From an uncultured Bacteroidota bacterium (GTDB lineage: Bacteria > Bacteroidota > Bacteroidia > Chitinophagales > Chitinophagaceae), in contig CAISOH010000132.1 of NCBI GenBank assembly GCA_903887005.1, positions 1-50,053 of the forward strand: a DNA stretch of 50,053 bases. The letters run 5' to 3'. A program made the position numbers and the translations under genes. The notes beneath the pieces were generated by a model that was given only the letters and a program-made list of their open reading frames with translations, was not told where the DNA came from and did not search any database. The stretch's first letter is position 1. Each line of letters begins with the position of its first letter. Positions 2,318-19,307 of this stretch are shown piece by piece.

Positions 2318-3322
2318 ATGCCACGCAATAAAAATTTCACCCGAAGAATAGAAATTTTGGACGAATGCCTTCGCAGACGCCAAAAAAAATGGTTTATTGA
2401 AGACCTATTAAATGCAGTTAATGATAAACTTGATGAGCGATTTGATAAAAAAGTCGGCAAACGTTCCCTCTACGATGATTTAAAGTATTTACAGGAAGAA
2501 AAAAATGCTCCTATTATAAAATGTTGGGAAGGGCAACGAGTATATTATAAATATGAGGATACCACATATTCTATTCTTAATCTCCCAATTAGCGAAGAAG
2601 AAATCATCAAACTAAAAGATGCAATCAAAATGCTTAGGGAAGTAAATGATTTTAATTTACTTGACGATGTAGATATGATTGTAGAGAAATTGGAGCATAC
2701 TATTGCTACAAATGTACCGGAGAACAGATCAATGATACAATTCGAGAAGCACACTTATGCTGATGGAGCCGAATATATCGATGATATATTTTCTGCGATT
2801 AAGGAAAAGAATGTCTTGAAAGTAGTTTACCAACCGTTTGGCGCACCCGAACCACAGGAATGGGTTATTCATCCTTATCTACTTAAAGAATACCGGAACC
2901 GCTGGTTTTTGATATGTAGAAGGGACGGCACACAAAAAGTTAGCAACCTGGCACTTGATAGAATCAAGAAAATTAAAAATTCATCTATCCCTTTCATCGA
3001 GAATGATCTGTTCGATGCAGATACTTTTTATGCATATTTAATCGGAGTTACCTTCCCAGAGGGAGAAAATGCCCAGGATATATTATTGAAGGTTACCGGA
3101 CGGCAGGTAAACTATGTGAAGACAAAGCCCATTCACAAATCGCAGGAAATCGTCGAAGAACCAAATGGAAATACTCTGATCATTAGGTTGAAGCTGATAA
3201 ATAATTACGAGCTGCAATCAGTGTTGCTGAGTTATACTCCTGATATTGAGGTGTTACAACCTATATCGTTAAGAGATCAGTTGAAGGAAAAATACCTGGC
3301 AATGATGAACGTGCTTAAATAA
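2318..3322 (+). CDS. WYL-domain transcriptional regulator
   Basis: This 334-residue protein has the usual layout of a WYL regulator. An N-terminal winged helix covers about residues 5-80 (RRIEILDECLRR, then KKVGKRSLYDDLKYLQ as the recognition region). A WYL domain follows at about residues 155-225 (VLKVVYQPF, HPYLLKEYRNRWFLIC, LALDRIKKI), then a C-terminal WCX-like extension. WYL proteins bind nucleic-acid or nucleotide ligands, and the BrxR/CapW type represses phage-defence operons. Here the gene stands at the head of a defence island and is followed immediately by the first of four copies of a conserved palindromic promoter site. That makes it the prime candidate for the regulator of those sites, which is inference. 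Confidence 0.85.
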   Translation: MPRNKNFTRRIEILDECLRRRQKKWFIEDLLNAVNDKLDERFDKKVGKRSLYDDLKYLQEEKNAPIIKCWEGQRVYYKYEDTTYSILNLPISEEEIIKLKDAIKMLREVNDFNLLDDVDMIVEKLEHTIATNVPENRSMIQFEKHTYADGAEYIDDIFSAIKEKNVLKVVYQPFGAPEPQEWVIHPYLLKEYRNRWFLICRRDGTQKVSNLALDRIKKIKNSSIPFIENDLFDADTFYAYLIGVTFPEGENAQDILLKVTGRQVNYVKTKPIHKSQEIVEEPNGNTLIIRLKLINNYELQSVLLSYTPDIEVLQPISLRDQLKEKYLAMMNVLK

Positions 3323-3323
3323 T

Positions 3324-3363
3324 ACTTGTGCAAGTAGATTGCATAAGTTGTTTTCATCTTTGC
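3324..3363 (+). promoter_or_regulatory. Island palindromic promoter/operator, copy A (before rmuC)
   Basis: An inverted repeat TGTGCAA-GTAGA-TTGCATA (3327-3345), extendable to 10-bp arms with one mismatch (3324-3348), is followed after exactly 9 nt by the -7-like box CATCTTTGC (3355-3363). The same arrangement recurs at 4897, 5557 and 14313. It lies 18 bp before the rmuC ATG and just after the WYL gene stop. Confidence 0.65.
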
Positions 3364-3380
3364 TTTTAAATAATTCAATT

Positions 3381-4892
3381 ATGGAAACCACATTAATTAT
3401 TGCATTAATAGCAGGGCTGGTATTAGGTAGTATTATTACTTGGCTGTATCGTAAGTTATTAACAGAGAAGAACGTAATTAGCCTTGCTGAATTTGAAACG
3501 ACAAAGGCTGCCTTGCAGACTGCTCAAACAGAGTTGGCCGTTGCCCGAGAAAAAAACGGAGGTGCAGAGATAGAATTAAGGCAGGCGAAGGATCTCACCG
3601 ACCAACTCAGAACATCTGAGCAGCAGGCACTACGGGAGCTGGATGTTTTGAAGACTGTAAAAGATAATGCGCTGGCACGTGTGGTGGAAGTAACCGCCGA
3701 CAGTAAAGAATTAAATACTGTATATTCTAAAACAAGAGAGTTACTAAATACTGCAAATAATACCATCGCCCGTCTCGAGGAAGAAGTGAAAAGTAGGGAT
3801 GAACGCCTAAAAACCCAGAAGCAGGATTTTGAAGAAATAAAGGGTAAGCTTGAAAAGGAATTTAAGGTAATAGCCGGGTCTATCCTCGACAACAGTTCTC
3901 AGAAGTTCCATGAGCAGCAATCAAATCACCTGAAAACAATACTTGATCCGCTCAAGGAAAACATCAATAGTTTTAAAACGGAGATTATCAGCAGATATAA
4001 TGATGAAAATAAGGATAGGGCTTCTCTGCGGACAGAAATTAAGCAAGTTGTAGAGTTGAACAAAGTACTATCAGAAGAGGCAAACAACCTTACCAATGCA
4101 CTAAAAGGGAACGCCAAGCAGCAGGGTGATTGGGGAGAGGTAATACTGGAGAGCATACTCGACTATGTGGGGCTGCAAAAAGGGATGCATTATACTGTTC
4201 AGGAGACAGCTACGAACAGTGATGGAAACAGGATAAGACCTGATGTGCTGGTGTTGTACCCCAACAAAAGTGTTTTGGTAATAGATTCCAAAGTTTCCCT
4301 ATTGCACTATGAGCAATACTGCTCCGCTGGCACCCTGGCAGAACAGGAACAATACAGGGCTTTGCTGGTAAAGTCGATAAAGACGCACATTGACGGCTTG
4401 AGTATAAAGAAGTATGCCGACTTGCCGGGTGCGTTGGATACCGTAATGATGTTCATCCCAATAGAACCTGCATTTATCACGGCGCAGCAGGGTGATCCGA
4501 AACTATGGCAGTATGCTTACGACAAAGGAATCATCTTGCTTAGCCCCACTTTATTGCTAGGCGCTATGAAACTGGTGCGAGACTACTGGAAAAGAGATGA
4601 AGTAAACCAAAATGCGCAGGAAATAGCCAAGAGGGCTGGTGCGCTATATGATAAACTGGCAGGATTTGTAGCCAACATGGATAGTGTAGGCGGCTACCTG
4701 GAAAAGGCAAAAGTAGCTTATGACGGGGCTTATGGACAACTGAAAAGCGGAAGAGGGAACCTTATAAGCCAGGCCACACAACTGAAGCAACTGGGTATAG
4801 AGGCTAAAAAGGACTTACCCAAAGACCTTGTGGCCGATGCCATGCTGGAGGCCGGTTTTATTTCACTACCTGAAGAAACGGAAAGCAAGTAA
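3381..4892 (+). CDS. rmuC: DNA recombination protein RmuC
   Basis: The 503-residue product begins with a membrane helix (residues about 3-24, LIIALIAGLVLGSIITWL). A long coiled coil of roughly 180 residues follows, then the RmuC domain with GDWGEVILESILDYVGL and a PD-(D/E)XK-like core RPDVLVLYPNKSVLVIDSK. RmuC proteins are putative nucleases that limit DNA inversions and rearrangements. The ATG at 3381 was chosen because the longer frame would run back through the promoter palindrome at 3324-3363, and because the membrane helix then sits at the N-terminus. RmuC is often a core gene, but here it shares its promoter site with island genes, which suggests recruitment into the defence regulon. 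Confidence 0.9.
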   Translation: METTLIIALIAGLVLGSIITWLYRKLLTEKNVISLAEFETTKAALQTAQTELAVAREKNGGAEIELRQAKDLTDQLRTSEQQALRELDVLKTVKDNALARVVEVTADSKELNTVYSKTRELLNTANNTIARLEEEVKSRDERLKTQKQDFEEIKGKLEKEFKVIAGSILDNSSQKFHEQQSNHLKTILDPLKENINSFKTEIISRYNDENKDRASLRTEIKQVVELNKVLSEEANNLTNALKGNAKQQGDWGEVILESILDYVGLQKGMHYTVQETATNSDGNRIRPDVLVLYPNKSVLVIDSKVSLLHYEQYCSAGTLAEQEQYRALLVKSIKTHIDGLSIKKYADLPGALDTVMMFIPIEPAFITAQQGDPKLWQYAYDKGIILLSPTLLLGAMKLVRDYWKRDEVNQNAQEIAKRAGALYDKLAGFVANMDSVGGYLEKAKVAYDGAYGQLKSGRGNLISQATQLKQLGIEAKKDLPKDLVADAMLEAGFISLPEETESK

Positions 4893-5556: not shown

Positions 5557-5596
5557 AGTTACGCAGATAGATTGCACAAGTTTGTGCCATCTTTGC
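5557..5596 (+). promoter_or_regulatory. Island palindromic promoter/operator, copy C (before kinase fusion)
   Basis: The right arm TTGCACA (5572-5578) is perfect. The left arm TACGCAG (5560-5566) differs from TGTGCAA by three transitions, and the 5-nt spacer ATAGA matches copy D. CATCTTTGC (5588-5596) follows after 9 nt. It lies 50 nt before the ATG at 5647 and probably drives the kinase-fusion, receiver, hsdM, hsdS operon. Confidence 0.6.
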
Positions 5597-5646
5597 AACA
5601 GCAAGAAGAAAAACAGACTCAAAACTTAATATTATATAGCATATTA

Positions 5647-8232
5647 ATGCAAAATATTACTACAACAATACGGAATTACTTAGCTCACGGATTGGGACCC
5701 AATCATCTTCTCGATATTTTCAAAGAAGTATCTAAATACGATCCAGAAGTTGAATACGAGCAAGTTTTAAATCGAATCCGTTCAAGAGTTGATCTGTTTC
5801 AATTAAATGATGATGCCACTGTACTCCTGAAACAATCTGAAAATAACGAAGTTGCAAATTTAATAGGTCGGTTACAAGAAAAATTCAGCAATATAACGGA
5901 ACCGGAAAATCTCTTTCTCCTAATAGTTTACCACATAGCTCTCGGAAGATATGCCAAGCTTGAACTAAAGCGAAAAAAAGGCACATCCATCTATGGCGAA
6001 TACAACTCCACATTGGCTTATAAAGGAATAATAATTCCAGACAAAGTATTTCTCAATATTGGTGGCATAACAATGTATGAAGTTGAAGAGTTACTTGATG
6101 AATATGATGAAATTTTTTGGGAAAAAATTGGTGGAGGTAATACCTTAAGTTTAATAGAATATCTTTTTCGAACATTTAATAATCCGAAAAAGGGTGATTG
6201 GATGTATCCAAGCGAATTTAGGATATTTATTAAAGAACTATTTCCTCAAAACGCAAAGAAAATATTGTTAGCAGCTCCGTCAGCTCATCAAACTGCTATT
6301 GAGCTATTAATAAAAAATCCGGAGCTAAAAATTGTTATTTGGGAAGCTAACCATTATACCCAAACAATCTATAGACTATTTTTTGACATTGCTGGCGTTA
6401 AAAGGGTGTATTTTACCAAAACGCTACCTATCGACTTTAGTACTGAATTTGAGGTAAAATGGTCAGAAACATTAATTGAAAATGAAATAATTGATTTTGC
6501 CTTTCTCGATGTTTTAGCAAAATCGGAGTTTTTAGAAACTAAAAATAAAAGAATAGATTTTGGAATAATCAATACTCTTAACGATTTATGCAGAGAGTGC
6601 GTGGTAGTGGTTCCCGAAAGCTATCTTTTTAATAACCATCCAATTGATGCGAGAGATAGAAATGAGTTATTGCTTGCGGGAAATTTCGTAAAAATATCTT
6701 CATTACCAGAAAAGGTGTTCACTCCTTATGCCCGTATAAAGACGTCTATCGTATATTTTTCAAATGTTAAAAATGATGCAGTAAAATTCGAATACTACAA
6801 TTCCGACACATGGAATAAGTTTAGGCTCTCGCAGAATTTGTCGGATATCAACAACATAAAACTTAATGCGTCGGTACCATTAAGTAAGTTAATTGAATCA
6901 GATAACCTTTCAGCAAGTCGATTTTGTTTGCCAGAAGTGGAAGTTCCTGGGAAAGCAGTAATGTTAAAGGATATAACATCAGGTATCACTCGTGGAATGC
7001 ATGTACTAGGTAATGAATTGAAAGAAGGTATTCCTGTTGTTACATACAAAGATCTGAGTGATGAAAATCAGTCAATCTATTTAAACTCCGAAGGATTTTC
7101 CAAATTTGCATCAGCTACCGCTAAAAATGATCCCAGGAAAAACCGGGCGTTAAAGAAAGGATCAATTCTATTAGCAGCAATTGGACCGAAATTAAAGCCC
7201 ACAGTTTTTAATTCGGATAATACAGTTTATTCATCTGGAAACCTGCTCAGTTTGACTATCGACCAAAGTAAGGCTATCCCAGAGTATGTTGCATTGGAAC
7301 TGCGTAAGCCATACGTAAAAGAACAGATTGATCGATTTGGTTTTACGTTACTGAGGCGTGCTGATCTCGAAACTATACGGATTTCCTTACCATCATTGAG
7401 TGAACAAAGAAAAATCGCTTTTCAAGAATTTGATAGTGCAACAAAAATTGATGATTCTGCTATCAGGGAAATTGTGGGAATTGTAAAGCATAGACTGAGT
7501 ACGCCGGTTGCAACGGTAAATCTTGGGTTGAAAAACTTAAATGATTTTATCCAAAACCTTGATCAAACACCGTTCACGGCTAACACAATCATTCATCCTC
7601 ACCCGGAATATTTGGATGAAATCGAGAAGGAAAAATATTCATTAAAAAACTCTGTAAATTCTATTTCGTTAATTGCAGAGGGCATTCAGAGTATTCTCAA
7701 GAAATTGGATCAAGTAACTAAACTTGAGAAAGACCAAATGGTATTGAGTGAAATTGCTTTCAAAAACTTCATTGAATCAAAAATAATACCACTTTTTGCC
7801 GCTAATCAAGTACAGTTTGAAATTAACGCTGACTATCAAAGCATTAATGCAGACGAAACACAACTTGAGTTCTTATTGATAAATTTGATTGAGAATGCTA
7901 TTAAGCATGGCAAAGAGGACAATGAAAGGCTGAAAGTTGTTTTACAGCTAAGTCTTGAGAAAATTGATACGGAAGGAAATGATTCAGTGGCACAGGGGAA
8001 TTTGATTCTTAGTGTAGCAAATAATGGCAAACCGCTTCCTGATGGTTTCAATAAAGAGGCATTTATAAAGAAGTTCTCGAAATCCGACTTTAGTTCTGGA
8101 AACGGTTTAGGGGGCTACATTGTAAATAAGATAGTATCAAACCACAAAGGGGAACTTGAAATATTGGATGAAAAAAATACTACCATTGCAGCAATGAAAG
8201 TTCAGTTTAATGTAAATCTACCAACAGAATGA
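5647..8232 (+). CDS. Pseudo-methyltransferase / HsdS-type specificity domain / histidine kinase fusion
   Basis: The 861-residue protein joins three parts. Residues about 150-375 follow the layout of an N6-adenine methyltransferase (HsdM), but the SAM-binding motif is replaced by ILLAAPSAHQTAIELL and the NPPF position reads FLDVLAKSEF, so it should be inactive. Residues about 410-595 resemble one HsdS target-recognition half, ending with LRRADLETIRISLPSLSEQR. The last 260 residues are a kinase: an H-box KHRLSTPVATV with H615, an N-box NLIENAIKHG (746-755), then ANNGKPLP and the G-box GNGLGGYIV. Its stop overlaps the receiver gene by 4 bp. The ATG at 5647 was chosen because earlier starts fall inside promoter copy C. 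The inferred role is sensing a DNA or restriction state and phosphorylating the partner. I know of no characterised homologue. Confidence 0.8.
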   Translation: MQNITTTIRNYLAHGLGPNHLLDIFKEVSKYDPEVEYEQVLNRIRSRVDLFQLNDDATVLLKQSENNEVANLIGRLQEKFSNITEPENLFLLIVYHIALGRYAKLELKRKKGTSIYGEYNSTLAYKGIIIPDKVFLNIGGITMYEVEELLDEYDEIFWEKIGGGNTLSLIEYLFRTFNNPKKGDWMYPSEFRIFIKELFPQNAKKILLAAPSAHQTAIELLIKNPELKIVIWEANHYTQTIYRLFFDIAGVKRVYFTKTLPIDFSTEFEVKWSETLIENEIIDFAFLDVLAKSEFLETKNKRIDFGIINTLNDLCRECVVVVPESYLFNNHPIDARDRNELLLAGNFVKISSLPEKVFTPYARIKTSIVYFSNVKNDAVKFEYYNSDTWNKFRLSQNLSDINNIKLNASVPLSKLIESDNLSASRFCLPEVEVPGKAVMLKDITSGITRGMHVLGNELKEGIPVVTYKDLSDENQSIYLNSEGFSKFASATAKNDPRKNRALKKGSILLAAIGPKLKPTVFNSDNTVYSSGNLLSLTIDQSKAIPEYVALELRKPYVKEQIDRFGFTLLRRADLETIRISLPSLSEQRKIAFQEFDSATKIDDSAIREIVGIVKHRLSTPVATVNLGLKNLNDFIQNLDQTPFTANTIIHPHPEYLDEIEKEKYSLKNSVNSISLIAEGIQSILKKLDQVTKLEKDQMVLSEIAFKNFIESKIIPLFAANQVQFEINADYQSINADETQLEFLLINLIENAIKHGKEDNERLKVVLQLSLEKIDTEGNDSVAQGNLILSVANNGKPLPDGFNKEAFIKKFSKSDFSSGNGLGGYIVNKIVSNHKGELEILDEKNTTIAAMKVQFNVNLPTE

Positions 8233-9116
8233 GCCTTGAACGAAAGCCAATAAGAGTTTTAATTATCGATGATGATGCTGATTATACTAAGCAGTTGACT
8301 ATACCCGCCGCTAAAAGACAAATATTATTGAAGTCCGCCACCAATTGGCAACAGGGTTTCGATATTATAAAGGGCGACAACCTTATCAGGTTCATAATTT
8401 TAGATGCCCGCTGTTTTATAAACGAAACACAAGTAGCAGGCACCGAATCTGAGAGATTCTTAATTACAGCAATTGACGAATTGAAAGAATGGCAAAGGTC
8501 AAACGGGAGATTTATTCCTTTTTGTATTAATACAGGGTATGCTGACAGCAAAAAAATGTTTGATCATCAATACAATGTATTTTCTAAAGATGATAACGTT
8601 GAAGTCCTTTTGAACTATGTATGGGATGAATATCAAAAATCGGGCATAGGCCAATTCTCTTCACAGTATCCAGAGCCTTTTGAATTTGTCAGTGATTATT
8701 TCACTCAAGAAAACAAAGAAGTGATTTCAGCCTTATTTAATAATAATAAGTTTTTAAAGACAGGTCAAAAGGATAGAATCGACAATCTTGGGGATTTAAG
8801 AAGGCTTTACGAACATTTTTGGGATATAATGCATATTGACTACTTGGAAAGGGATATTAATGAATTCCCATCTAGTGATGGCAAGCGCACAGCAAAAATT
8901 AAGGATGCGGTGAACGCGAAAATCACTATTCCAAAAATAATCTCTAATTGGGCAGATAACCTATATTTTGCTGCCAGTAAATACGGAGATCATAACCCTG
9001 TAGACGATAGGCAACTGAAGCTGCTGCCCAGCAATTACGCTGTAGCTTCTTTTTGTTATGGACTTTTAGACGCACTTAATTGGGGAGATCATCTTATAAA
9101 GAACAAAAAACATTAG
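8229..9116 (+). CDS. Receiver-domain protein, partner of the kinase fusion
   Basis: This 295-residue protein has an N-terminal response-regulator receiver domain. It shows an acidic cluster IIDDD (D14-D16), a likely phosphoacceptor D59 in FIILDA, T102 in INTGY and K120 in VFSK, which are the usual phosphorylation-site residues in the correct order. The C-terminal 150 residues are mostly helical and show no recognisable DNA-binding or enzymatic domain (DLRRLYEHFWDIMH, then NWADNLYFAASKYGD). The output is therefore unknown and may be protein-protein contact rather than transcription. Start and stop overlap the upstream kinase gene (ATGA), and hsdM starts 3 bp downstream. Translational coupling points to a stoichiometric complex with the restriction-modification proteins. 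Confidence 0.8.
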   Translation: MSLERKPIRVLIIDDDADYTKQLTIPAAKRQILLKSATNWQQGFDIIKGDNLIRFIILDARCFINETQVAGTESERFLITAIDELKEWQRSNGRFIPFCINTGYADSKKMFDHQYNVFSKDDNVEVLLNYVWDEYQKSGIGQFSSQYPEPFEFVSDYFTQENKEVISALFNNNKFLKTGQKDRIDNLGDLRRLYEHFWDIMHIDYLERDINEFPSSDGKRTAKIKDAVNAKITIPKIISNWADNLYFAASKYGDHNPVDDRQLKLLPSNYAVASFCYGLLDALNWGDHLIKNKKH

Positions 9117-9119
9117 CAA

Positions 9120-10607
9120 ATGCTTACACAAGAATTACGTACCGATATAGATAAAATTTGGAATACCTTTTGGACAGGGGGTATCTCTAACCCGCTGTCT
9201 GTAATAGAACAGATCACTTACCTGCTGTTTATAAAACGGCTGGATGAGTTGCAACAACTGAAGGAAAACAAAGCGGCGATGCTGGGCAAATCGATAGATA
9301 AGCCGATATACCAGCCTCAAGAAAAAGAGCTGCGCTGGAGCAGCTTTAAAGACCTAGAGCCGGAACAGATGCGCAAGCTCTTTACCAAGGACGAAGGTGT
9401 ATTTGACTTTATGAAGAACTATGGTGCAAAGGATAGTGCCTTCGGTAGGTTTATGAAGGGTGCAGTGTTCATGATACCCACTCCCAGACTGCTGGCAAAT
9501 GTGGTGGATATGCTGAGCGGCATAGACATGAAAGACCGCGACACTAAGGGGGATGTGTATGAATACCTGCTGAGTAAGATAGCCACCGCCGGACAAAACG
9601 GACAGTTTCGTACACCGAGGCACATCATTAAGATGATGGTTGACCTGATGCAACCCGGCCCCGAAGACGTAATCTGTGACCCTAGTGCCGGTAGCTGTGG
9701 CTTCTTGGTGGGATGTGCTGAATATATGAGGGAGCACCATAGCAAGGAGTTTTTTAAAGCGGGCTTTGAGCAGTACTTCAGCAACGATATGTTTATGGGT
9801 ATGGAGTTTGACCCCACAATGATACGCATAGGTGCTATGAACATGATACTACATGGTATAGAAGAACCGGTGCTGATGGACGTGGATGCGCTAAGTGATG
9901 CAAATAGCGATTTTACCGAAAAGGCTACGCTAATAATGGCTAATCCACCTTTTAAGGGCAGTCTGGATAAGGATGCGGTAGATAAAGAACTACTGCGCAT
10001 AGTTGATGCTGCAAAAACAGAGCTATTGTTTCTGGCTCTTATACTCAAAGGGCTTAAGAAAGGTGGCAGAGCTGCGGTGATCATACCCGATGGGGTGTTA
10101 TTTGGTACCAGTAAGGCTCACCAGCAAATAAGAAAGGAACTAATTGACAAGCATCGACTTCAAGCTGTTATAAGTATGCCGGCTGGTGTATTTAAGCCAT
10201 ATGCAGGGGTGAGTACGGGAGTACTGATATTTACCAAAACTGGAAATGGAGGCACCGACAATGTGTGGTTTTACGACATGAAAGGTGACGGCTATACCCT
10301 CGATGATAAACGCCAGCCTGATGAAAAGAAGAACGACATACCCGATATAGTAATGCGTTGGCAGCACTTAGAAAAGGATAAGAAGAATACCCGAACCGAC
10401 AAAAGCTTCTTTGTGCCAGTAGCTGAGATACGTAGTAACAAATATGACCTGAGCATTAACCGCTATAAAGAAACTGTGTATGAAGAGAAATTCTATGCGA
10501 TGCCTTCGGATATAATTACCGAAATAAAACAATTAGACAAGGAGCGTAGTGAGGCATTGAAGAAACTCGAAAAACTAATACAAGGAAAGGAGGTGGAAAC
10601 GGTATGA
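9120..10607 (+). CDS. hsdM: Type I restriction-modification DNA methyltransferase HsdM
   Basis: The 495-residue protein is a complete N6-adenine methyltransferase subunit. It has the HsdM N-terminal helical domain (residues 1-150), GQFRTPRHIIKMMVDLMQP before the catalytic fold, SAM-binding motif DPSAGSCGF (187-195) and catalytic NPPF (275-278). With HsdS it methylates the host recognition site; with HsdR it forms the restriction complex. It is the third gene of an operon with the kinase fusion and receiver protein, and its TGA overlaps the hsdS ATG. Its base composition looks less A+T-rich than the kinase fusion upstream, suggesting the two halves of the operon had different histories. Confidence 0.95.
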   Translation: MLTQELRTDIDKIWNTFWTGGISNPLSVIEQITYLLFIKRLDELQQLKENKAAMLGKSIDKPIYQPQEKELRWSSFKDLEPEQMRKLFTKDEGVFDFMKNYGAKDSAFGRFMKGAVFMIPTPRLLANVVDMLSGIDMKDRDTKGDVYEYLLSKIATAGQNGQFRTPRHIIKMMVDLMQPGPEDVICDPSAGSCGFLVGCAEYMREHHSKEFFKAGFEQYFSNDMFMGMEFDPTMIRIGAMNMILHGIEEPVLMDVDALSDANSDFTEKATLIMANPPFKGSLDKDAVDKELLRIVDAAKTELLFLALILKGLKKGGRAAVIIPDGVLFGTSKAHQQIRKELIDKHRLQAVISMPAGVFKPYAGVSTGVLIFTKTGNGGTDNVWFYDMKGDGYTLDDKRQPDEKKNDIPDIVMRWQHLEKDKKNTRTDKSFFVPVAEIRSNKYDLSINRYKETVYEEKFYAMPSDIITEIKQLDKERSEALKKLEKLIQGKEVETV

Positions 10608-11791
10608 AATGGAAAATAGAGAATATCAAGAATTTAGTCGGAGAACCTATTACCGGTGAATGGGGAGAAGAGGGATGAGAAGTAAAAGTGTTGAGAACGA
10701 CCAACTTTACTAATGATGGGAGCCTGGATCTATCTGAAGTGGTTGAACGCGATATTGATGTCAAAAAAGTTCAAAAGAAAAGGCTTCAATTTGGCGATAC
10801 AATTATCGAAAAATCAGGTGGGAGCCCAAGTCAGCCTGTTGGGAGGGTTGTTTATTTTGATATTGATAGTGAAGAGCCATACCTATGTAACAATTTCACA
10901 GCGGTTTTAAGGCCAAACTCTTCGACTGATCCCAAATATTTGTTCTGGTTTTTATTCTATAATCATCTTACTAAAAATACCCTGCGCTTTCAGAACAAGA
11001 CAACCGGGATAATTAATTTACAGTTAACACGATATTTAGCTGAGTTGAAAATTCCCCTCCCCACCCTTGCTGCGCAGCAAAAATTGGCGGCAATACTTGA
11101 TGAAGCTGATGCACTGCGCCGCAAGGATAATGCACTTCTGGCAAAGTTTGACGAGTTACTGCAATCGGTTTTTTATGATATGTTTGGTGATCCCGTAAAA
11201 AATGATAGGGAATGGGAAGTAAAGAAATTATTTTCCATTGGGAAGATAAAAAGTGGAGGTACTCCTTCTAGAGAAAGACCTGAATTTTTTAAAGGAGATA
11301 TTCCTTGGGTAACAACAGTTTCATTAGGGGAGTTGTTTATTGATGAAAAAAAAGCTGTTGAGTTTATTACTGAAGATTCAATTATTAACAGTGCAACTAA
11401 ACTTGTCCCTAAAGGCTCTATTATGATAGGGACACGTGTAGGTGTAGGTAAGGCTTCTATCTTAAAATGCGACATTTGCTCTAGTCAAGACATACTTTCT
11501 TTATCAGAACTAGATACTAATTTTAGCACTGTTTTTCTTCACCAAGTACTGTCATATTACCAACAATATTTTGAATCTCAAAAAAGAGGCGCTACAATTC
11601 AAGGTATAACCTCAGACACAATTAAGGGCTTAGACATAATTTACCCTCCTAAAGAATATCAATCGCAATTTGAAAAAGTGTCTTTAGGTATTTATGATCA
11701 AAAATCCCAAATCATCCAACAACGAATCAATTCAGAAAACCTATTTCAATCGCTTATGCAGCGTGCATTTAAAGGGGAACTGGTGGGATAA
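10604..11791 (+). pseudogene. hsdS: Type I specificity subunit HsdS interrupted by an in-frame TGA
   Basis: The ATG at 10604 overlaps the hsdM stop. The frame reads 24 codons ending ITGEWGEEG, hits TGA at 10676-10678, then continues in the same frame with EVKVLRTTNFTNDG to 11791. Both sides match the start of a HsdS target-recognition domain, so this is one gene with a nonsense codon rather than two. The remainder holds the central conserved region (LPTLAAQQKLAAILDEADAL), a second recognition domain (IKSGGTPSRERPEFF) and the C-terminal repeat (SLMQRAFKGEL). Re-initiation at GTG 10688 would lose 28 residues of the first domain. It may be a recent mutation, a sequencing error or readthrough. 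If real, methylation and restriction specificity would be impaired. Confidence 0.75.
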
Positions 11792-11877: not shown

Positions 11878-12444
11878 TTGGAAAGATTACCATTGTATAC
11901 CATAGGCCACGGCAACAGAACCAGGGAAGAACTCCTTGATCTGCTGGAGCGTTATGGCATAAAATTCCTGATTGATGTGCGTACAGTACCGTACTCCAAA
12001 TATCAGCCACAGTATAACCGGGAAGACCTCACTACATACATGCAGGCTCACAGCATCCGGTATGTTTACATGGGCGATTCGCTTGGTGGCAGACCCAAAG
12101 ACACTTCTTGTTATAACAGCGAAGGTAAAATAGACTACGAGGCGCTTAAAACGAAAGAATTCTACATTGAGGGCATAAACAGGCTAAAAACGGCTTACGA
12201 AAAACAGGTGCCTATCGCAATCATGTGCAGTGAAAGCAAGCCTTTAGAATGTCACAGGAGCAAGCTAATTGGTCGCACGTTACTACAGGAAAATATACTG
12301 TTGCAGCACATAGATGAAAATGGTCGGCTGAAAGGTCAGGAAATAATCATTAACGAGCTAAATAAAGGCAAATCAGAATTTACGTTGTTTGGCGAAATTT
12401 CTGATCTCTCGAATCATGGCTCACGCAAATCATACCTTGATTAA
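11878..12444 (+). CDS. DUF488 family protein (first of two)
   Basis: The protein begins LPLYTIGHGNRTREELLDLL, the characteristic opening of DUF488. It keeps FLIDVRTVPYSKYQPQ and the C-terminal signature CSESKPLECHRS (two Cys, Glu and His positions). The family has an unknown biochemical activity and is common in defence neighbourhoods. No ATG is available: the nearest upstream in-frame codon is a stop at 11863-11865, so TTG 11878 (or TTG 11893) must be the start. The second DUF488 gene follows 21 bp later and an OB-fold gene overlaps that, so the three probably form one operon. Confidence 0.85.
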   Translation: MERLPLYTIGHGNRTREELLDLLERYGIKFLIDVRTVPYSKYQPQYNREDLTTYMQAHSIRYVYMGDSLGGRPKDTSCYNSEGKIDYEALKTKEFYIEGINRLKTAYEKQVPIAIMCSESKPLECHRSKLIGRTLLQENILLQHIDENGRLKGQEIIINELNKGKSEFTLFGEISDLSNHGSRKSYLD

Positions 12445-12465
12445 TCATAAACACACACCCTCCCC

Positions 12466-12942
12466 ATGGAATTTTATACAATGGGCGTTTACGGTCTTAA
12501 AGACCATGAATTTTTCGGTAAGCTGGTAGAAAACGGCATTGATACATTTATTGATATCAGGCGGCGCAGGGCTGTAAGAGGTTCGGAATACGTTTTTGTC
12601 AATAGCAACCGGCTGCAAAATAAACTGAAAGAGCTGGGCATAAATTATATTCACATTCTGGATCTGGCACCAACCAACGAAATCAGAGATGCTCAAAAAA
12701 AAGCTGATGCTCAAACCGGTACTGCGAAACGTACCCGTGAGGAGTTGGGGCCTGTTTTCAAACATAGATACGAAAAGGAAATTTTAGAAAAATACGACAT
12801 TGGTCAGCTTATAGACCAACTTGTGCAAATAGGTTGCAGAAAGGCGTTGTTGTTTTGTGTGGAGCGTCAGCCTAATGCTTGCCACCGCTCTATGGTAGCA
12901 AACAAATTACAACACCTAAACTATTCTGTACATCATTTATGA
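12466..12942 (+). CDS. DUF488 family protein (second of two)
   Basis: This 158-residue protein is diverged from its neighbour but keeps the DUF488 frame. It opens MEFYTMGVYGLKDHEFFGKL, carries TFIDIRRRRA in the middle, and has the C-terminal signature LLFCVERQPNACHRS. The IGHG glycine-histidine at the start is replaced by GVYG, so the two proteins may have distinct roles or form a heterodimer. Its TGA overlaps the ATG of the OB-fold gene (ATGA), indicating translational coupling. Function cannot be stated beyond family membership. Confidence 0.82.
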   Translation: MEFYTMGVYGLKDHEFFGKLVENGIDTFIDIRRRRAVRGSEYVFVNSNRLQNKLKELGINYIHILDLAPTNEIRDAQKKADAQTGTAKRTREELGPVFKHRYEKEILEKYDIGQLIDQLVQIGCRKALLFCVERQPNACHRSMVANKLQHLNYSVHHL

Positions 12943-13628
12943 GCCAGGTATTAATAATTTCAAAAACACATTTGCAACATGCAATGTGCGTCGGCGGTCT
13001 GGAACTCAACACAAATAGGAGTATCAGGCTAATGAGCCCTGGCGATCACCATTACCAACCATTAGATACTCCACTTAATGTAGGGCAGGTATGGGAGATA
13101 ACATACCATAATCATCCAAATATCCATGCTCCGCATACAGAGGATGTGATCGTAACAGCCAAACAATTTTTACGCAACCAAGCTGATTTGCCAGGGCTAA
13201 TCACTCAGAGAAATCTTATTAATTACAGGGGTCATGTAAATAACGTATTTGGAGGTCACCTACATTGGACAAACAGTGGCAGCGGATATATTCCTGTTAA
13301 TGGTCCTTTCCCTGACCGAAGCGTGGGTTTCTGGACTTGCGATAAAGATTTATTAAAGAGAACATTTGACAACAACAAGGTAAGATACAGTTATAAAAAT
13401 GGAATGGCGTATCGAAATCTAAGCTATGTCGGAACCCAGGAACCTTCAGATATAATCAGTGCCGGAACTATAATAAGGGTTTCGCTTTCAAGAGTATTTC
13501 CTCGTCCGGGACAGGAAAATCAGTTCAATAATGTTCCTCAAGGTTATTATTTACAACTTTCTGGCTGGTATACAAATGCTCAACTAGCAAATCCAAGACC
13601 AGAAACAATTGATGATTTGCCATTTTAG
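12939..13628 (+). CDS. Dual-OB-fold-like protein, coupled to DUF488 genes
   Basis: The 229-residue product starts MSQVLIISKTHLQHAMCVGG and has a beta-rich pattern through residues 45-75 (NVGQVWEITYHNHPNIHAPH) and again at 175-215 (SAGTIIRVSLSRVF, YYLQLSGWY). This fits the dual OB-containing domain that often accompanies DUF488 genes. OB folds usually bind single-stranded nucleic acid or oligonucleotides, which makes sensing or binding plausible here, but no specific ligand can be assigned. The start overlaps the previous stop (ATGA); the longer frame beginning at 12879 lies wholly inside the DUF488 gene and was rejected. Confidence 0.65.
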   Translation: MSQVLIISKTHLQHAMCVGGLELNTNRSIRLMSPGDHHYQPLDTPLNVGQVWEITYHNHPNIHAPHTEDVIVTAKQFLRNQADLPGLITQRNLINYRGHVNNVFGGHLHWTNSGSGYIPVNGPFPDRSVGFWTCDKDLLKRTFDNNKVRYSYKNGMAYRNLSYVGTQEPSDIISAGTIIRVSLSRVFPRPGQENQFNNVPQGYYLQLSGWYTNAQLANPRPETIDDLPF

Positions 13629-13643
13629 TACCTAAATCTTTTT

Positions 13644-14243
13644 ATGAAAAAAGGGATATTTTGTCTTGAAGGCTTATGGTCTTCATCTGTCAGGGATAGG
13701 AGTACCGTTCAGCCAATGCTGGAAATAATGAACAAACGTAGCATTTGCGATCATATCCATCATTCCTGTGCCACCAAGGAAGAGCTAATCTACTTTTTGA
13801 ACCGGTTCAAATCAAAATCCGTTCAAGACAAATTTCCTATTCTTTATTTTGGGTTTCATGGAGAGAAAGATTGCATTTGTCTTGCGGGTAAGGAAAAATT
13901 CACGCTGACAGAATTGGGCGACGTGCTGGCAAATAGTGCTAAAGGGAAAGTGCTCTACTTTGCCTCCTGTGACACACTAAATACTGATGAACGTAAAATA
14001 AAGAATTTACTAGAAAAAACAGGTGCTATAGCAGCCATAGGCTATAAAGCACTGATAGATTGGATGCAATCTGCTGCCTTCGATTTATTAGTGCTTGATG
14101 CGTTACAAAGTGATCGCTTTGACGGGAGAGGGATTCAAAAAATAAAGGACTATATAACCAGCGAATATGGGAATCTTGGAAATAAACTGAAATTCAGGAT
14201 GGTTATTAATGACAGGATACATTTTCCGAGAAAGAGGAAATAG
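13644..14243 (+). CDS. DUF6642-like protein with caspase-like His/Cys pair
   Basis: The 199-residue protein opens MKKGIFCLEGLWSSS and resembles the DUF6642 family by eye. A hydrophobic strand ends in ILYFGFHG (H72, G73) and a second ends in VLYFASCD (C109). A strand followed by His-Gly and a later strand followed by Ser-Cys is the layout of caspase/CHAT-fold cysteine peptidases, so a proteolytic role is plausible. A further segment IAAIGYKALIDW fits the same fold. CHAT peptidases act as effectors in several defence systems. The gene lies 15 bp after the OB-fold gene and probably belongs to the same operon. The fold call is inference, as catalysis has not been shown for this family. Confidence 0.6.
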   Translation: MKKGIFCLEGLWSSSVRDRSTVQPMLEIMNKRSICDHIHHSCATKEELIYFLNRFKSKSVQDKFPILYFGFHGEKDCICLAGKEKFTLTELGDVLANSAKGKVLYFASCDTLNTDERKIKNLLEKTGAIAAIGYKALIDWMQSAAFDLLVLDALQSDRFDGRGIQKIKDYITSEYGNLGNKLKFRMVINDRIHFPRKRK

Positions 14244-15932: not shown

Positions 15933-18900
15933 ATGCCATCAAACTTCTCCTTTCTGCAACATGAGTTTGCACCGATGTACGAGGACATACATCGGGCGGA
16001 GGAGCATGTATTCACCGACCCTATGTATTGCGCCATACTCTGTCGCAAAGGGTTAGAGGGTTTGGTAAAATGGCTGTATGATAATGATAAAGACCTCGAA
16101 CTGCCCTACGATACTACGCTCAATTCCCTCATGCATGAGCAATCGTTTCAGCAGGTCATTCCGCCTACACTGCTTCGCAATATCAATCTATTACGCAAAA
16201 TCGGCAATAATGCCGTTCATAGCTCTCAAAAAACAACAAGCACCGAATCACTATCGGCACTGCGGATATTGTTCGACTTCGCTCTTTGGGTAGTACGTAT
16301 TTATAGTTCTACACAAACCCCGGTTGTAGCATTCGATGAAAACATATTACCAACTGGCAGCCCGATTAAACGTAACCGTGCCGAAACTGAAATACTACAA
16401 CAGCAGTATGAAGATACCCGGCAACAATTGGAACGTGCTAATAAGGAGCTAAAGCACAATGAAAGCCTGATGCAAGAGCTACAGGCAAGGCTGGATGCCG
16501 TGCATGTAGTAAAAGAGGCGCATAAAGATACTGTCACACCATCTGTAAGCATTACAGAGGTAGAGACCCGAAAACTATACATAGATACTTTGCTCAAAGA
16601 AGCTGGTTGGGATGCAACATTGCCAGGAATAACAGAATATCCGGTAAAAGGAATGCCGGAGAATACAGGAGATGGTAGGGCCGACTATGTACTGTGGGGA
16701 GATGATGGTAAGCCGCTGGCAGTAATTGAGGCTAAACGCACTACAGCCGATGCCCGTCAGGGCCAGAGGCAGGCAGAATTATATGCCCGATGCCTGGAGC
16801 AAATGACCGGACAGCGCCCGGTTATATATTACACCAATGGTTTTGAAACGCATATTTGGGATGATGCAGCAGGTTATCCGCCGAGAGTAGTACATGGCTT
16901 TTATAGCAAGGATGAATTGCAGTTGGCTATCAATAGGCGCACGCTCCGGCAACCGCTCACAAAATTGTCATCCAACAAGGAGATTGCAGGGTATTACTAT
17001 CAGCAATTAGCAATAACTGCGGTGTCAGAGCGGCTACAAGCTAAAAACCGGGGCGCATTGTTAGTTATGGCTACCGGCACCGGCAAAACCCGGACAGCAA
17101 TAGCCCTCGTTGACCTATTGACCAAGGCAGGCTGGGCTAAGAAAATACTATTTCTTGCCGACAGAAATGCATTGGTAACGCAGGCCAAAAAGAATTTCAA
17201 CAAACATCTGCCGAACCTTACCGCAATAGACCTAACCAAAGAAGATGAAGATACTGCCAGCCGCATAGTATTCAGTACTTACCCTACTATGATGAACCGA
17301 ATAGATAGTGTAAAGAGCGAAGGGCACAGATATTACGGTGTAGGGCATTTTGATTTAGTGATCATAGATGAGGCTCATCGTAGTGTGTACCAGAAATACA
17401 GGGCAATATTTGAGTATTTCGACGCGATATATATTGGGCTTACCGCTACTCCGAAGGCAGATAGTGATAAAGATACTTATGAACTCTTTGGGCTGGAACC
17501 ACACAATCCTACTTACGCCTATGAGCTTACGCAAGCCGTCGGTGATGGATATCTCAATGAACCTAAAACATTGAAAGTCCCATTAAAATTTCCTCGTTTA
17601 GGGGTTAAATATGATGATCTGAGCGAGGAAGAGAAAGCGGAGTATGAAAAGGAATTTCTGGAAAATTTCGGAACCATACCAAAAGAAGTAAATAGTAGTG
17701 CGATTAATAACTGGTTGTTTAATAAAAATACTGCTGACCAGGTCCTAGATCTGCTAATGTTTCATGGAGTGAGAATAGAAGGTGGCGATAAACTTGGTAA
17801 GACAATCATCTTTGCTCGCAATCATGATCATGCTGTTTTTATTGAAGATTGTTTTAATAAACGCTACCCCGATAAGGCCGGGAAAATGCTGCGGATAATA
17901 GACAATCAAACAAAATTTGCGCAAAACGCTATTGATGAGTTCTCTCAAAAAGACAATACAGAATTTCTGATTGCAGTTTCAGTGGATATGCTTGATACAG
18001 GGATTGACATTCCCGAAATAGTCAATTTGGTATTCTTTAAGCCGGTAATGTCGAAAGCCAAGTTCTGGCAAATGGTAGGCCGGGGTACACGGCTTTGCCC
18101 TGATCTGTTTGGTCCCGGTGACGACAAGAAGTTTTTTCGCATACTTGACATTTGTGGTAATGTAGAATTTTTCAGTGCCGGTATAAAAGAAACTGAAGCT
18201 CCAATGCATGGCACATTGAGCCAACAGATATTTAATGCAAGGTTGCAGGCTACTTGGTTACTGCAAAATGCCACTGCAAATTCTGATGAGGATAAAGATG
18301 TCGCCAGGCAATATGCCGACACCTTGCATAGTATTGTAGATGGTTATAGCGAAGAAGATTTCAGAGTGAGAATGCATTTACGCTATGTTGTAAAATACCG
18401 TGACCCTGCCATATGGAATGTACTGACACAATCAGATGTTTTGGATATTCAACAACACTTGTCACATTTATATACCGATGAACAATCTGCCGAACTCACC
18501 CGACGTTTCGACCTTACAGTTCTGCGATTGATGATCTGTATATTGGAAGGTGGCAGTACCAAATACTATGTTGAAAAGATCAAGACATCAGTTAATGGTT
18601 TATTGAGGAAAATGAACCTGCCTGATGTAAAGAAGCAGGAGCCACTCATACGCAATGTACTTGAAGATGAGTACTGGCAGAACATATCGGTGGCTGGTAT
18701 GGAATCAATGCGACAGGCATTGAGAGAATTGATGCAGTATTTGGAGCAGGAACAAAAGAGAGTGCTCTACACCAATTTTACTGATGAAATGTCCGGCAGA
18801 GTTGAAGAAGCCGAGATAATAGGGGGATATTTTAACCTTCCGGCTTATAAAAAGCGTGTTGAAAAATTTATTCGAGAAAACGAACACAACATTACTATCC

Positions 18901-19307
18901 ACCGTATCCGCAACAACATACCTATTACAAAGGCTGAACTGGATGAATTGGAACGAATGCTGTTCAGTATTGATGAGAATGCCGATAGAGAAATGCTGAA
19001 CAAGGCTGTAGAAGGTCAGCCATTGGGAAAGTTCATCAGAAGCATATTGGGTTTGGATATTAACGCAGCAAAATCTGCGTTTGCCGATTTTCTTAACGAT
19101 CAAAATTTAAACTCTTCGCAGATAAATTTTATCAACACACTAATTGATTATTTGTGTCAAAACGGAACTATTGATAAGGACATGCTGTTTGATAAGCCCT
19201 TTACCAACATTAATGATCAGGGTGTAGTAGGTGTATTTCCTCAACACGCAGGTAAGATCATTTCTATAATTGATAGAATAAATGCGAACGCAATACAAGT
19301 GGCGTAA
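15933..19307 (+). CDS. hsdR: Type I restriction endonuclease/translocase subunit HsdR with DUF4145 domain
   Basis: The 1124-residue protein starts with a DUF4145-like helical domain (residues 1-130, CAILCRKGLEGLVKWLYD) and a coiled coil at about 145-190. It continues with the nuclease domain (ADYVLWGDDGKPLAVIEAKR, PD-(D/E)XK near 250-267). The SF2 motor has Walker A MATGTGKT near residue 380, DEAH near 480, GLTATP, and a C-terminal QMVGRGTRLCP motif VI. An EcoEI-R-type C-terminal region ends the protein. HsdR cleaves unmethylated DNA after ATP-driven translocation with HsdM and HsdS. It is separated from hsdS by about 4 kb of accessory genes, yet its motifs look intact. Confidence 0.95.
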   Translation: MPSNFSFLQHEFAPMYEDIHRAEEHVFTDPMYCAILCRKGLEGLVKWLYDNDKDLELPYDTTLNSLMHEQSFQQVIPPTLLRNINLLRKIGNNAVHSSQKTTSTESLSALRILFDFALWVVRIYSSTQTPVVAFDENILPTGSPIKRNRAETEILQQQYEDTRQQLERANKELKHNESLMQELQARLDAVHVVKEAHKDTVTPSVSITEVETRKLYIDTLLKEAGWDATLPGITEYPVKGMPENTGDGRADYVLWGDDGKPLAVIEAKRTTADARQGQRQAELYARCLEQMTGQRPVIYYTNGFETHIWDDAAGYPPRVVHGFYSKDELQLAINRRTLRQPLTKLSSNKEIAGYYYQQLAITAVSERLQAKNRGALLVMATGTGKTRTAIALVDLLTKAGWAKKILFLADRNALVTQAKKNFNKHLPNLTAIDLTKEDEDTASRIVFSTYPTMMNRIDSVKSEGHRYYGVGHFDLVIIDEAHRSVYQKYRAIFEYFDAIYIGLTATPKADSDKDTYELFGLEPHNPTYAYELTQAVGDGYLNEPKTLKVPLKFPRLGVKYDDLSEEEKAEYEKEFLENFGTIPKEVNSSAINNWLFNKNTADQVLDLLMFHGVRIEGGDKLGKTIIFARNHDHAVFIEDCFNKRYPDKAGKMLRIIDNQTKFAQNAIDEFSQKDNTEFLIAVSVDMLDTGIDIPEIVNLVFFKPVMSKAKFWQMVGRGTRLCPDLFGPGDDKKFFRILDICGNVEFFSAGIKETEAPMHGTLSQQIFNARLQATWLLQNATANSDEDKDVARQYADTLHSIVDGYSEEDFRVRMHLRYVVKYRDPAIWNVLTQSDVLDIQQHLSHLYTDEQSAELTRRFDLTVLRLMICILEGGSTKYYVEKIKTSVNGLLRKMNLPDVKKQEPLIRNVLEDEYWQNISVAGMESMRQALRELMQYLEQEQKRVLYTNFTDEMSGRVEEAEIIGGYFNLPAYKKRVEKFIRENEHNITIHRIRNNIPITKAELDELERMLFSIDENADREMLNKAVEGQPLGKFIRSILGLDINAAKSAFADFLNDQNLNSSQINFINTLIDYLCQNGTIDKDMLFDKPFTNINDQGVVGVFPQHAGKIISIIDRINANAIQVA

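Follow-up and report, generated by a model that had tools for sequence, protein, structure and literature searches.

A kinase gene and a receiver gene at a type I restriction locus

The stretch of DNA analysed here (the window: 50,053 nucleotides, contig CAISOH010000132.1, from an uncultured Chitinophagaceae bacterium of the phylum Bacteroidota) carries a two-gene element directly 5′ of the type I methyltransferase gene hsdM. The first gene (5647 to 8232, forward strand, as are the receiver, hsd, WYL and RmuC genes below) encodes a predicted sensor histidine kinase of 861 amino acids, in which an HsdM-like part, a half-HsdS-like part and the DHp and CA parts of a kinase succeed one another within a single open frame (open reading frame (ORF) 5572 to 8232, ATG at 5647). 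The second (8229 to 9116) encodes a partner response regulator of 295 amino acids, comprising a receiver domain (residues 1 to ~130) and a C-terminal domain (~138 to 295). The two genes overlap by 4 bp and hsdM starts at 9120, after a gap of 3 bp, as a first-pass annotation of this locus had indicated.

Scanned alone against Pfam, the window kinase shows a HATPase_c (CA) domain at residues 736-847 (PF02518, E = 1e-11; 7852 to 8187), which holds the N, G1 and G2 boxes, and a Methylase_S match at residues 497-591 (PF01420, E = 4e-5), with no N6_Mtase or HisKA match. PADLOC adds MTase_I at residues 317-397 (E = 1.5e-10), together with numerous matches to Specificity_I profiles. We further used a leave-one-out profile of 28 relatives that excludes the window row. 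The E value against it is 1.4e-81 for the whole protein, 2e-45 for the kinase core alone, 2e-28 for the recognition region and 8e-9 for the methyltransferase region (residues 145-401). Together these matches delimit a degenerate N6-methyltransferase region (residues 144-401; 6076 to 6849), a single HsdS-type recognition region (residues 436-590; 6952 to 7416) and a DHp-like region (7444 to 7791) with the candidate phospho-acceptor H615 (codon 7489-7491), and they bear out the earlier claim that one frame joins HsdM-like, HsdS-type and kinase parts. Residues 130-310 alone are not significant against the family profile (E = 0.38), residues 1-143 do not align to it, and a profile of true HsdM proteins picks up residues 308-378 only. 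Because its own profile signal is this weak, the first half of the HsdM-like region in the window copy is recognised only through its relatives.

A family profile that includes the window matches, in consecutive order, the HsdM structure 7vru (E = 3e-55), the HsdS structure 1yf2 (4e-16) and the kinase structure 3a0r (6e-17), and its DHp region also aligns to 3dge. A long methyltransferase subunit (PDB 7eew) aligns to profile positions 154-634, spanning both the methyltransferase and the recognition region. The order of these two regions is that of type I HsdM and HsdS; what differs is that there is one recognition half and that a histidine-kinase core replaces the second half of HsdS. The protein does not have the layout of an HsdS specificity subunit, in which a pair of recognition domains is combined with a pair of conserved helical regions: here a single recognition region is followed by the kinase core. 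No span is hydrophobic enough for a membrane segment (maximum 19-residue mean 1.28), which suggests a soluble, cytosolic kinase.

Conservation and spread of the kinase–receiver family

All genomes searched for the pair belong to one phylum. With the window kinase as query, 98 other genomes yielded two clear relatives (G002 and G069), both followed by a receiver gene, and a partial match in G012 that proved to be a third. Across 395 genomes of the phylum, a profile built from 15 kinases then detected at least 12 full-length kinases, of which two had been found before, and the receiver profile matched 22 of the 396 genomes of the order, those of the window and G069 counted in. In total, 29 loci carry kinase and receiver together, and in all but one of them (locus L094) the partner is recognised by the receiver profile; two of the 29 (L103, L104) were found via hsdM, which biases the set toward hsdM linkage. 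When contigs were scanned with the window protein, a single match (L001) was returned, and it covered the kinase domain only. Neither window protein matched plasmids at E = 1e-8 or 1e-3, and no relative was found in viral contigs with the patterns from A1 and A2.

Across the 29 loci, the acceptor histidine to which H615 aligns, the N-box asparagine, the G1 N-x-G and the G2 G-x-G are each present in 29/29. The usual residue at the G1 position is aspartate; in this family it is asparagine, as in 3a0r. The H, N, G1 and G2 boxes are thus held in common with the classical kinases 3a0r and 3dge, from which most members differ in the residue that follows the histidine. The methyltransferase side tells another story. 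N-P-P is kept in five loci and S-P-P in two more (7/29), the N/S-PP motif having been lost in the remaining 22, so methylation is rarely plausible, and these counts indicate a protein whose kinase side is conserved and whose methyltransferase side has drifted from catalysis. Some members retain a fair motif I. The window copy has neither motif I nor N/S-PP and hence lacks the combination expected of an active HsdM (motif I plus [NDS]PP[FYW]); the absence of S-adenosylmethionine (SAM)-binding and NPPF motifs noted in the first pass was correct for this copy. When 15 members were each scanned alone (Pfam, E ≤ 0.01), N6_Mtase was found in 14, HATPase_c in 14, Methylase_S in eight and HARE-HTH in four; ten more members (E 0.01) gave 10/10, 9/10 and 6/10 for the first three.

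The receiver is equally well preserved. The window protein has the complete phosphorylation pocket claimed for it (D14, D15, D59, T102 and K120; D59 codon 8403-8405), and among 34 receivers the acidic pair is present in 33, Asp59 in 34, Thr/Ser in 34, Lys in 33 and Trp285 in 34. The leave-one-out receiver profile recovers it at E = 2e-49, and its C-terminal part (~138-295) alone at 3e-16. Its likeness to receivers of known structure is distant: the window protein has no Pfam match at E 1, a single-sequence search gave it no relative of solved structure (best E 0.2), the family profile matches solved receivers weakly (best E 7e-4), and Response_reg is matched, again weakly, in only 3/20 receivers. 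The pocket is therefore shared with CheY-like receivers, from which this protein is set apart by its little Response_reg signal and a C-terminal domain of its own.

No DNA-binding domain is recognisable in the receiver, as the first-pass annotation had stated, but to say that it has no output domain would be only partly right, given the conserved C-terminal domain, in which R191, E195 and W285 are invariant across a 20-row alignment. A DUF4145/HEPN-like identity for this domain is a lead only. Compared with DUF4145, it reaches an hhalign P of 0.006 and scores 22.5, where 100 column shuffles give 15.2 at most; the HH-suite probability is only 6%, and two longer unrelated profiles scored 20.2 and 21.8. 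Pfam HEPN is matched at 0.085 in one of 20 receivers. HsdR in the same operon carries an N-terminal DUF4145 domain (15933-16300, E = 1e-10), and this and the second domain of the receiver possibly share a fold.

In L094 the usual domain is replaced: the partner (L094:2438-3385) joins a diverged receiver to a Schlafen AlbA_2 domain (E = 6e-15), an unusual exchange of effector which shows that the C-terminal slot can be refilled. The gene after it matches a type II restriction-enzyme profile over ~80 of 685 residues (E = 1e-15). Eight receivers (L055, L059, L090, L091, L095, L097, L103 and L104) are 374-396 amino acids long, with an extra C-terminal tail that has no Pfam match; by eye, these tails resemble a small beta-barrel (OB or cold-shock like).

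Signatures of maintenance and of partnership are seen in the sequences as well. Among four close g153 kinases dN/dS is 0.03-0.05, low in every region, suggesting purifying selection on the kinase in these relatives; most pairs of kinases from genus g158 are saturated at silent sites. Kinase and receiver distances correlate (Mantel r 0.39, 0/2000 permutations, n=28, a set that contains four near-identical rows). Six loci have a receiver gene with no kinase alongside, and all six genomes carry a full-length kinase elsewhere. In L152-L157 and in genus g158, kinase and receiver are unlinked to each other and near-core, the kinase being present in 8/9 and the receiver in 9/9 g158 genomes. The solitary kinases and the g153 pairs form one clade (9 rows, support 100/100).

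Linkage to type I restriction genes

In the window, a WYL-domain regulator (2318 to 3322; PF13280, E = 1.9e-12) and an RmuC-family protein (3339 to 4892; PF02646, E = 1.7e-93) are encoded 5′ of the kinase. The receiver gene is followed by hsdM (9120 to 10607; PF02384, E = 7.5e-64, with HsdM_N), hsdS (10604 to 11791), two DUF488 genes, DuOB, DUF6642 (weakly caspase-like), DUF3010, a Ser/Thr protein kinase gene and hsdR (15933 to 19307). The hsdS ATG at 10604 overlaps hsdM by 4 bp, and its frame is broken by an in-frame TGA (10676-10678), the listed ORF beginning at 10688; the type I system of the window may therefore be impaired, or the stop may be an assembly error. G+C content falls to 34-36% across the kinase and receiver genes, against 40-43% across hsdM. 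Close to the window start lies a Mu-type transposase C-terminal domain (24-722). Assignment of these genes to the MADS system was rejected, NCBIfam scores being far under the cut-offs (hsdM 103/720, hsdS 32/400, Ser/Thr kinase 80/460 bits).

Across the family described above, hsdM comes after the receiver gene, directly or one ORF on, in 16/29 loci (the window, G002, L041, L048, L054, L055, L056, L058, L059, L090, L091, L093, L095, L099, L103 and L104), or 14/27 when the two loci found through hsdM are excluded. In L092, hsdMSR is divergent and ~4 kb off, and in L097 hsdR lies past a WYL gene. The other 11 loci have no hsd gene within the stretch fetched. WYL homologues adjoin the pair in a number of relatives, and the RmuC gene between WYL and kinase recurs in G002, L041 and L054. 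In L057 the pair adjoins a gene for a TmtA-like protein of 1674 amino acids, and in L097 it adjoins type I REase and PDC-S68 genes; these two loci and L098 are located among defence genes. No hsd match lies within ~7-8 kb of five g158 kinase loci and one g170 locus, whose surroundings are housekeeping-like by eye.

The pair does not follow the history of the restriction genes beside it. Between the window and G002, the WYL, hsdM, hsdR, DUF488 and DUF6642 proteins are 86-96% identical (hsdM and hsdR 90-92%), while identity is 23.5% for the kinase, ~20% for the receiver, 39% for HsdS, 48% for RmuC and 62% for DuOB. With hsdM still 90% identical, such divergence indicates that the pair was exchanged within the locus. 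G002 retains the two DUF488, DuOB and DUF6642 genes found between hsdS and hsdR (11878-14243), with 62-96% identity, but has no close counterpart of the protein kinase and DUF3010 genes. The G002 locus has an extra 306-aa protein between receiver and hsdM (L015:17271-18191), with no Pfam or PADLOC match. Among hsdM relatives, those at 67-69% identity (G012, G1101) adjoin a pair and those at 59-66% (G019, G1031, G1051) do not, G019 being seen over 1.2 kb to the contig end.

Distances across the family agree with this picture. Kinase distances show no co-divergence with hsdM, hsdS or hsdR (r 0.00, -0.05 and 0.02; n 16-17), and those of the receiver no significant correlation with hsdM (r 0.09, p 0.20), while hsdM and hsdR correlate with each other (r 0.78, n=15). 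The kinase-WYL correlation is weak (r 0.27, p 0.034, n=15). On a 34-row tree, hsd linkage requires six changes, at least five of them forced by well-supported branches; it is nonetheless more clustered than shuffled labels (mean 11.5-11.7 changes, 0/500 as low). By these sequence comparisons, the pair belongs to type I systems as a portable accessory and not as a subunit.

A proposed sensor of DNA and its alternatives

The reading of the two proteins as a kinase and its receiver is well supported, and the proposed two-component pair with a restriction-derived sensor has proven recurrent, with conserved catalytic residues. Sensing of DNA or of its methylation is our best inference for its input. 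We give a probability of roughly one half to a portable, cytosolic two-component system in which a presumed DNA-clamp sensor drives a phosphorelay that would control restriction or a nucleic-acid-directed output. HsdS proteins have a coiled coil. In the kinase the DHp helices would stand in for it, forming a dimer whose two recognition halves and two methyltransferase-like lobes could clamp DNA in the manner of an M2S methyltransferase that has lost its methylating activity. Closure or non-closure on bare, modified or foreign DNA would then alter autophosphorylation of H615 and phosphotransfer to D59, and the phosphorylated receiver would act via its C-terminal domain. Pairs that lie 5′ of hsdMSR, frequently accompanied by a WYL regulator, would most likely tune the expression or activity of restriction; elsewhere the pair would drive another, possibly nucleic-acid-directed, output.

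Several observations weigh against this proposal. Single-sequence AlphaFold models of the two proteins reach a pLDDT of only 34 and 30. The residue directly after the acceptor histidine is acidic in only 9/29 loci and non-acidic in 20/29, being arginine in the window. The window kinase is the most diverged member, with the longest branch of the tree (2.57), and the only one of the 15 members first scanned that lacks a Pfam N6_Mtase (PF02384) match; taken with the stop in hsdS, this suggests that the window locus may be decaying. The recognition region raises a further difficulty. Type I specificity regions are usually hypervariable. That of the kinase is not: mean pairwise identity is 24.8% in the recognition region, 22.9% in the methyltransferase region, 17.5% in DHp and 26.6% in CA (region limits set by us), and in several close pairs the recognition region is the best-conserved part. 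It is conserved like the rest, which rules out a diversifying specificity domain and leaves it ill-suited to reading variable sites. Nor is it any closer to the cognate HsdS than to other HsdS proteins (mean score 55.4 vs 56.2, permutation p 0.59, 17 loci, with two HsdS incomplete: that of L041, at a contig end, and that of the window). That the kinase recognises the target site of the type I system beside it thus found no support, in keeping with the missing co-divergence with hsdM/S/R. Should the recognition region read DNA, what it reads is probably shared by many members and is not the variable target of its neighbour.

A narrower version of the DNA-sensing proposal holds that a retired methyltransferase-specificity assembly serves as a methylome sensor feeding the phosphorelay, having begun in restriction loci and been domesticated to near-core status in one lineage. 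We regard it as tentative, with odds clearly below even.

Somewhat less probable still is that the input parts sense proteins or SAM, binding HsdS, HsdM or HsdR and reporting complex assembly and methylation so that the receiver restrains HsdR. The input parts share homology with the very subunits they would encounter, in more than half of the loci hsdM comes after the pair, and the fair motif I of some members makes cofactor binding possible there. Nevertheless, the window copy has lost motif I, the pair does not co-diverge with hsdM/S/R, it has been swapped in a locus where hsdM and hsdR remain 90-92% identical, and one genus keeps it as near-core although no hsd genes are linked to it. The existence of pairs that have no hsd genes in their vicinity likewise disfavours one of the options first raised, namely that assembly of the type I complex is the only signal.

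An infection alarm appears a shade more doubtful. Here the kinase would respond to invading or damaged DNA by phosphorylating a receiver-effector, whose attack on RNA or DNA would bring about abortive infection alongside the restriction system. The Schlafen domain of L094, the weak DUF4145/HEPN likeness of the usual C-terminal domain and the defence surroundings of L057, L097 and L098 are consistent with it. On the other hand, that likeness has a probability of only 6% with unrelated profiles scoring nearly as high, no RxxxxH HEPN motif was seen by eye in the receiver, and the housekeeping-like surroundings of the near-core pair would be an odd site for a toxin. A degenerate relic, made of a worn methyltransferase and an inactive GHKL ATPase with no signalling role, is improbable: the divergence of the window copy and the broken hsdS adjoining it fit such decay, but kinase and receiver residues are conserved family-wide, selection is purifying in four relatives and unlinked pairs co-occur.

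The closest precedent are the HEF_HK (PF19191)/Response_reg_2 (PF19192) pairs, which, according to Bellieny-Rabelo et al. 2021 (PMC8011034), are enriched near restriction-modification genes, type I included, and proposed to control the adjoining restriction genes. Both systems place a soluble kinase-like protein next to an unusual receiver near restriction genes. HEF_HK sensors are described there as mostly HATPase_c_3 (paraMORC-like), with neighbours that are especially type II with C5 methylases; the present pair has type I neighbours. That it is simply another such pair is the least probable reading of all, as the shared genomic logic and a weak alignment of the receiver regions (hhalign P 0.01) are outweighed by C-terminal parts that do not align (P 0.89), by the lack of PF19191, PF19192 and HATPase_c_3 matches in kinases or receivers, and by the absence of PF19192 from the window's genome at E 1e-5.

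Other known systems resemble the pair in part. Relatives of the BrxR-family WYL regulators are reported next to type I enzymes, as WYL genes lie beside the pair in a number of loci, and the text of that report does not contain the term "histidine kinase" (PMC9122601). Fusions of Schlafen RNases with a minimal histidine kinase are mentioned beside BREX (PMC12839542). No fusion of the present kind is described in the covered passages of PMC7641849 and PMC2147049, we found no description of an HsdM-HsdS-kinase fusion in the titles, abstracts and passages of the open PMC literature, and this input domain was not found joined to a kinase in the profile libraries and literature searched.

The first observation, of a kinase built from restriction parts with its own receiver, is confirmed at the sequence level and widened to a family. 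Histidine kinases sense small molecules, light, membranes and proteins. If the DNA-clamp proposal is true, DNA sequence or modification would be directly coupled to two-component signalling, and type I restriction would gain a dedicated, testable regulator. A system of two genes, sometimes free of restriction genes, offers a clean setting for asking what DNA signal is read, and the solitary near-core pairs (L152-L157, g158) are the best place to find the output genetically. The recurrence of the pair in other genomes, in some cases far from restriction genes, suggests a route from the state of DNA to a phosphorylation signal.

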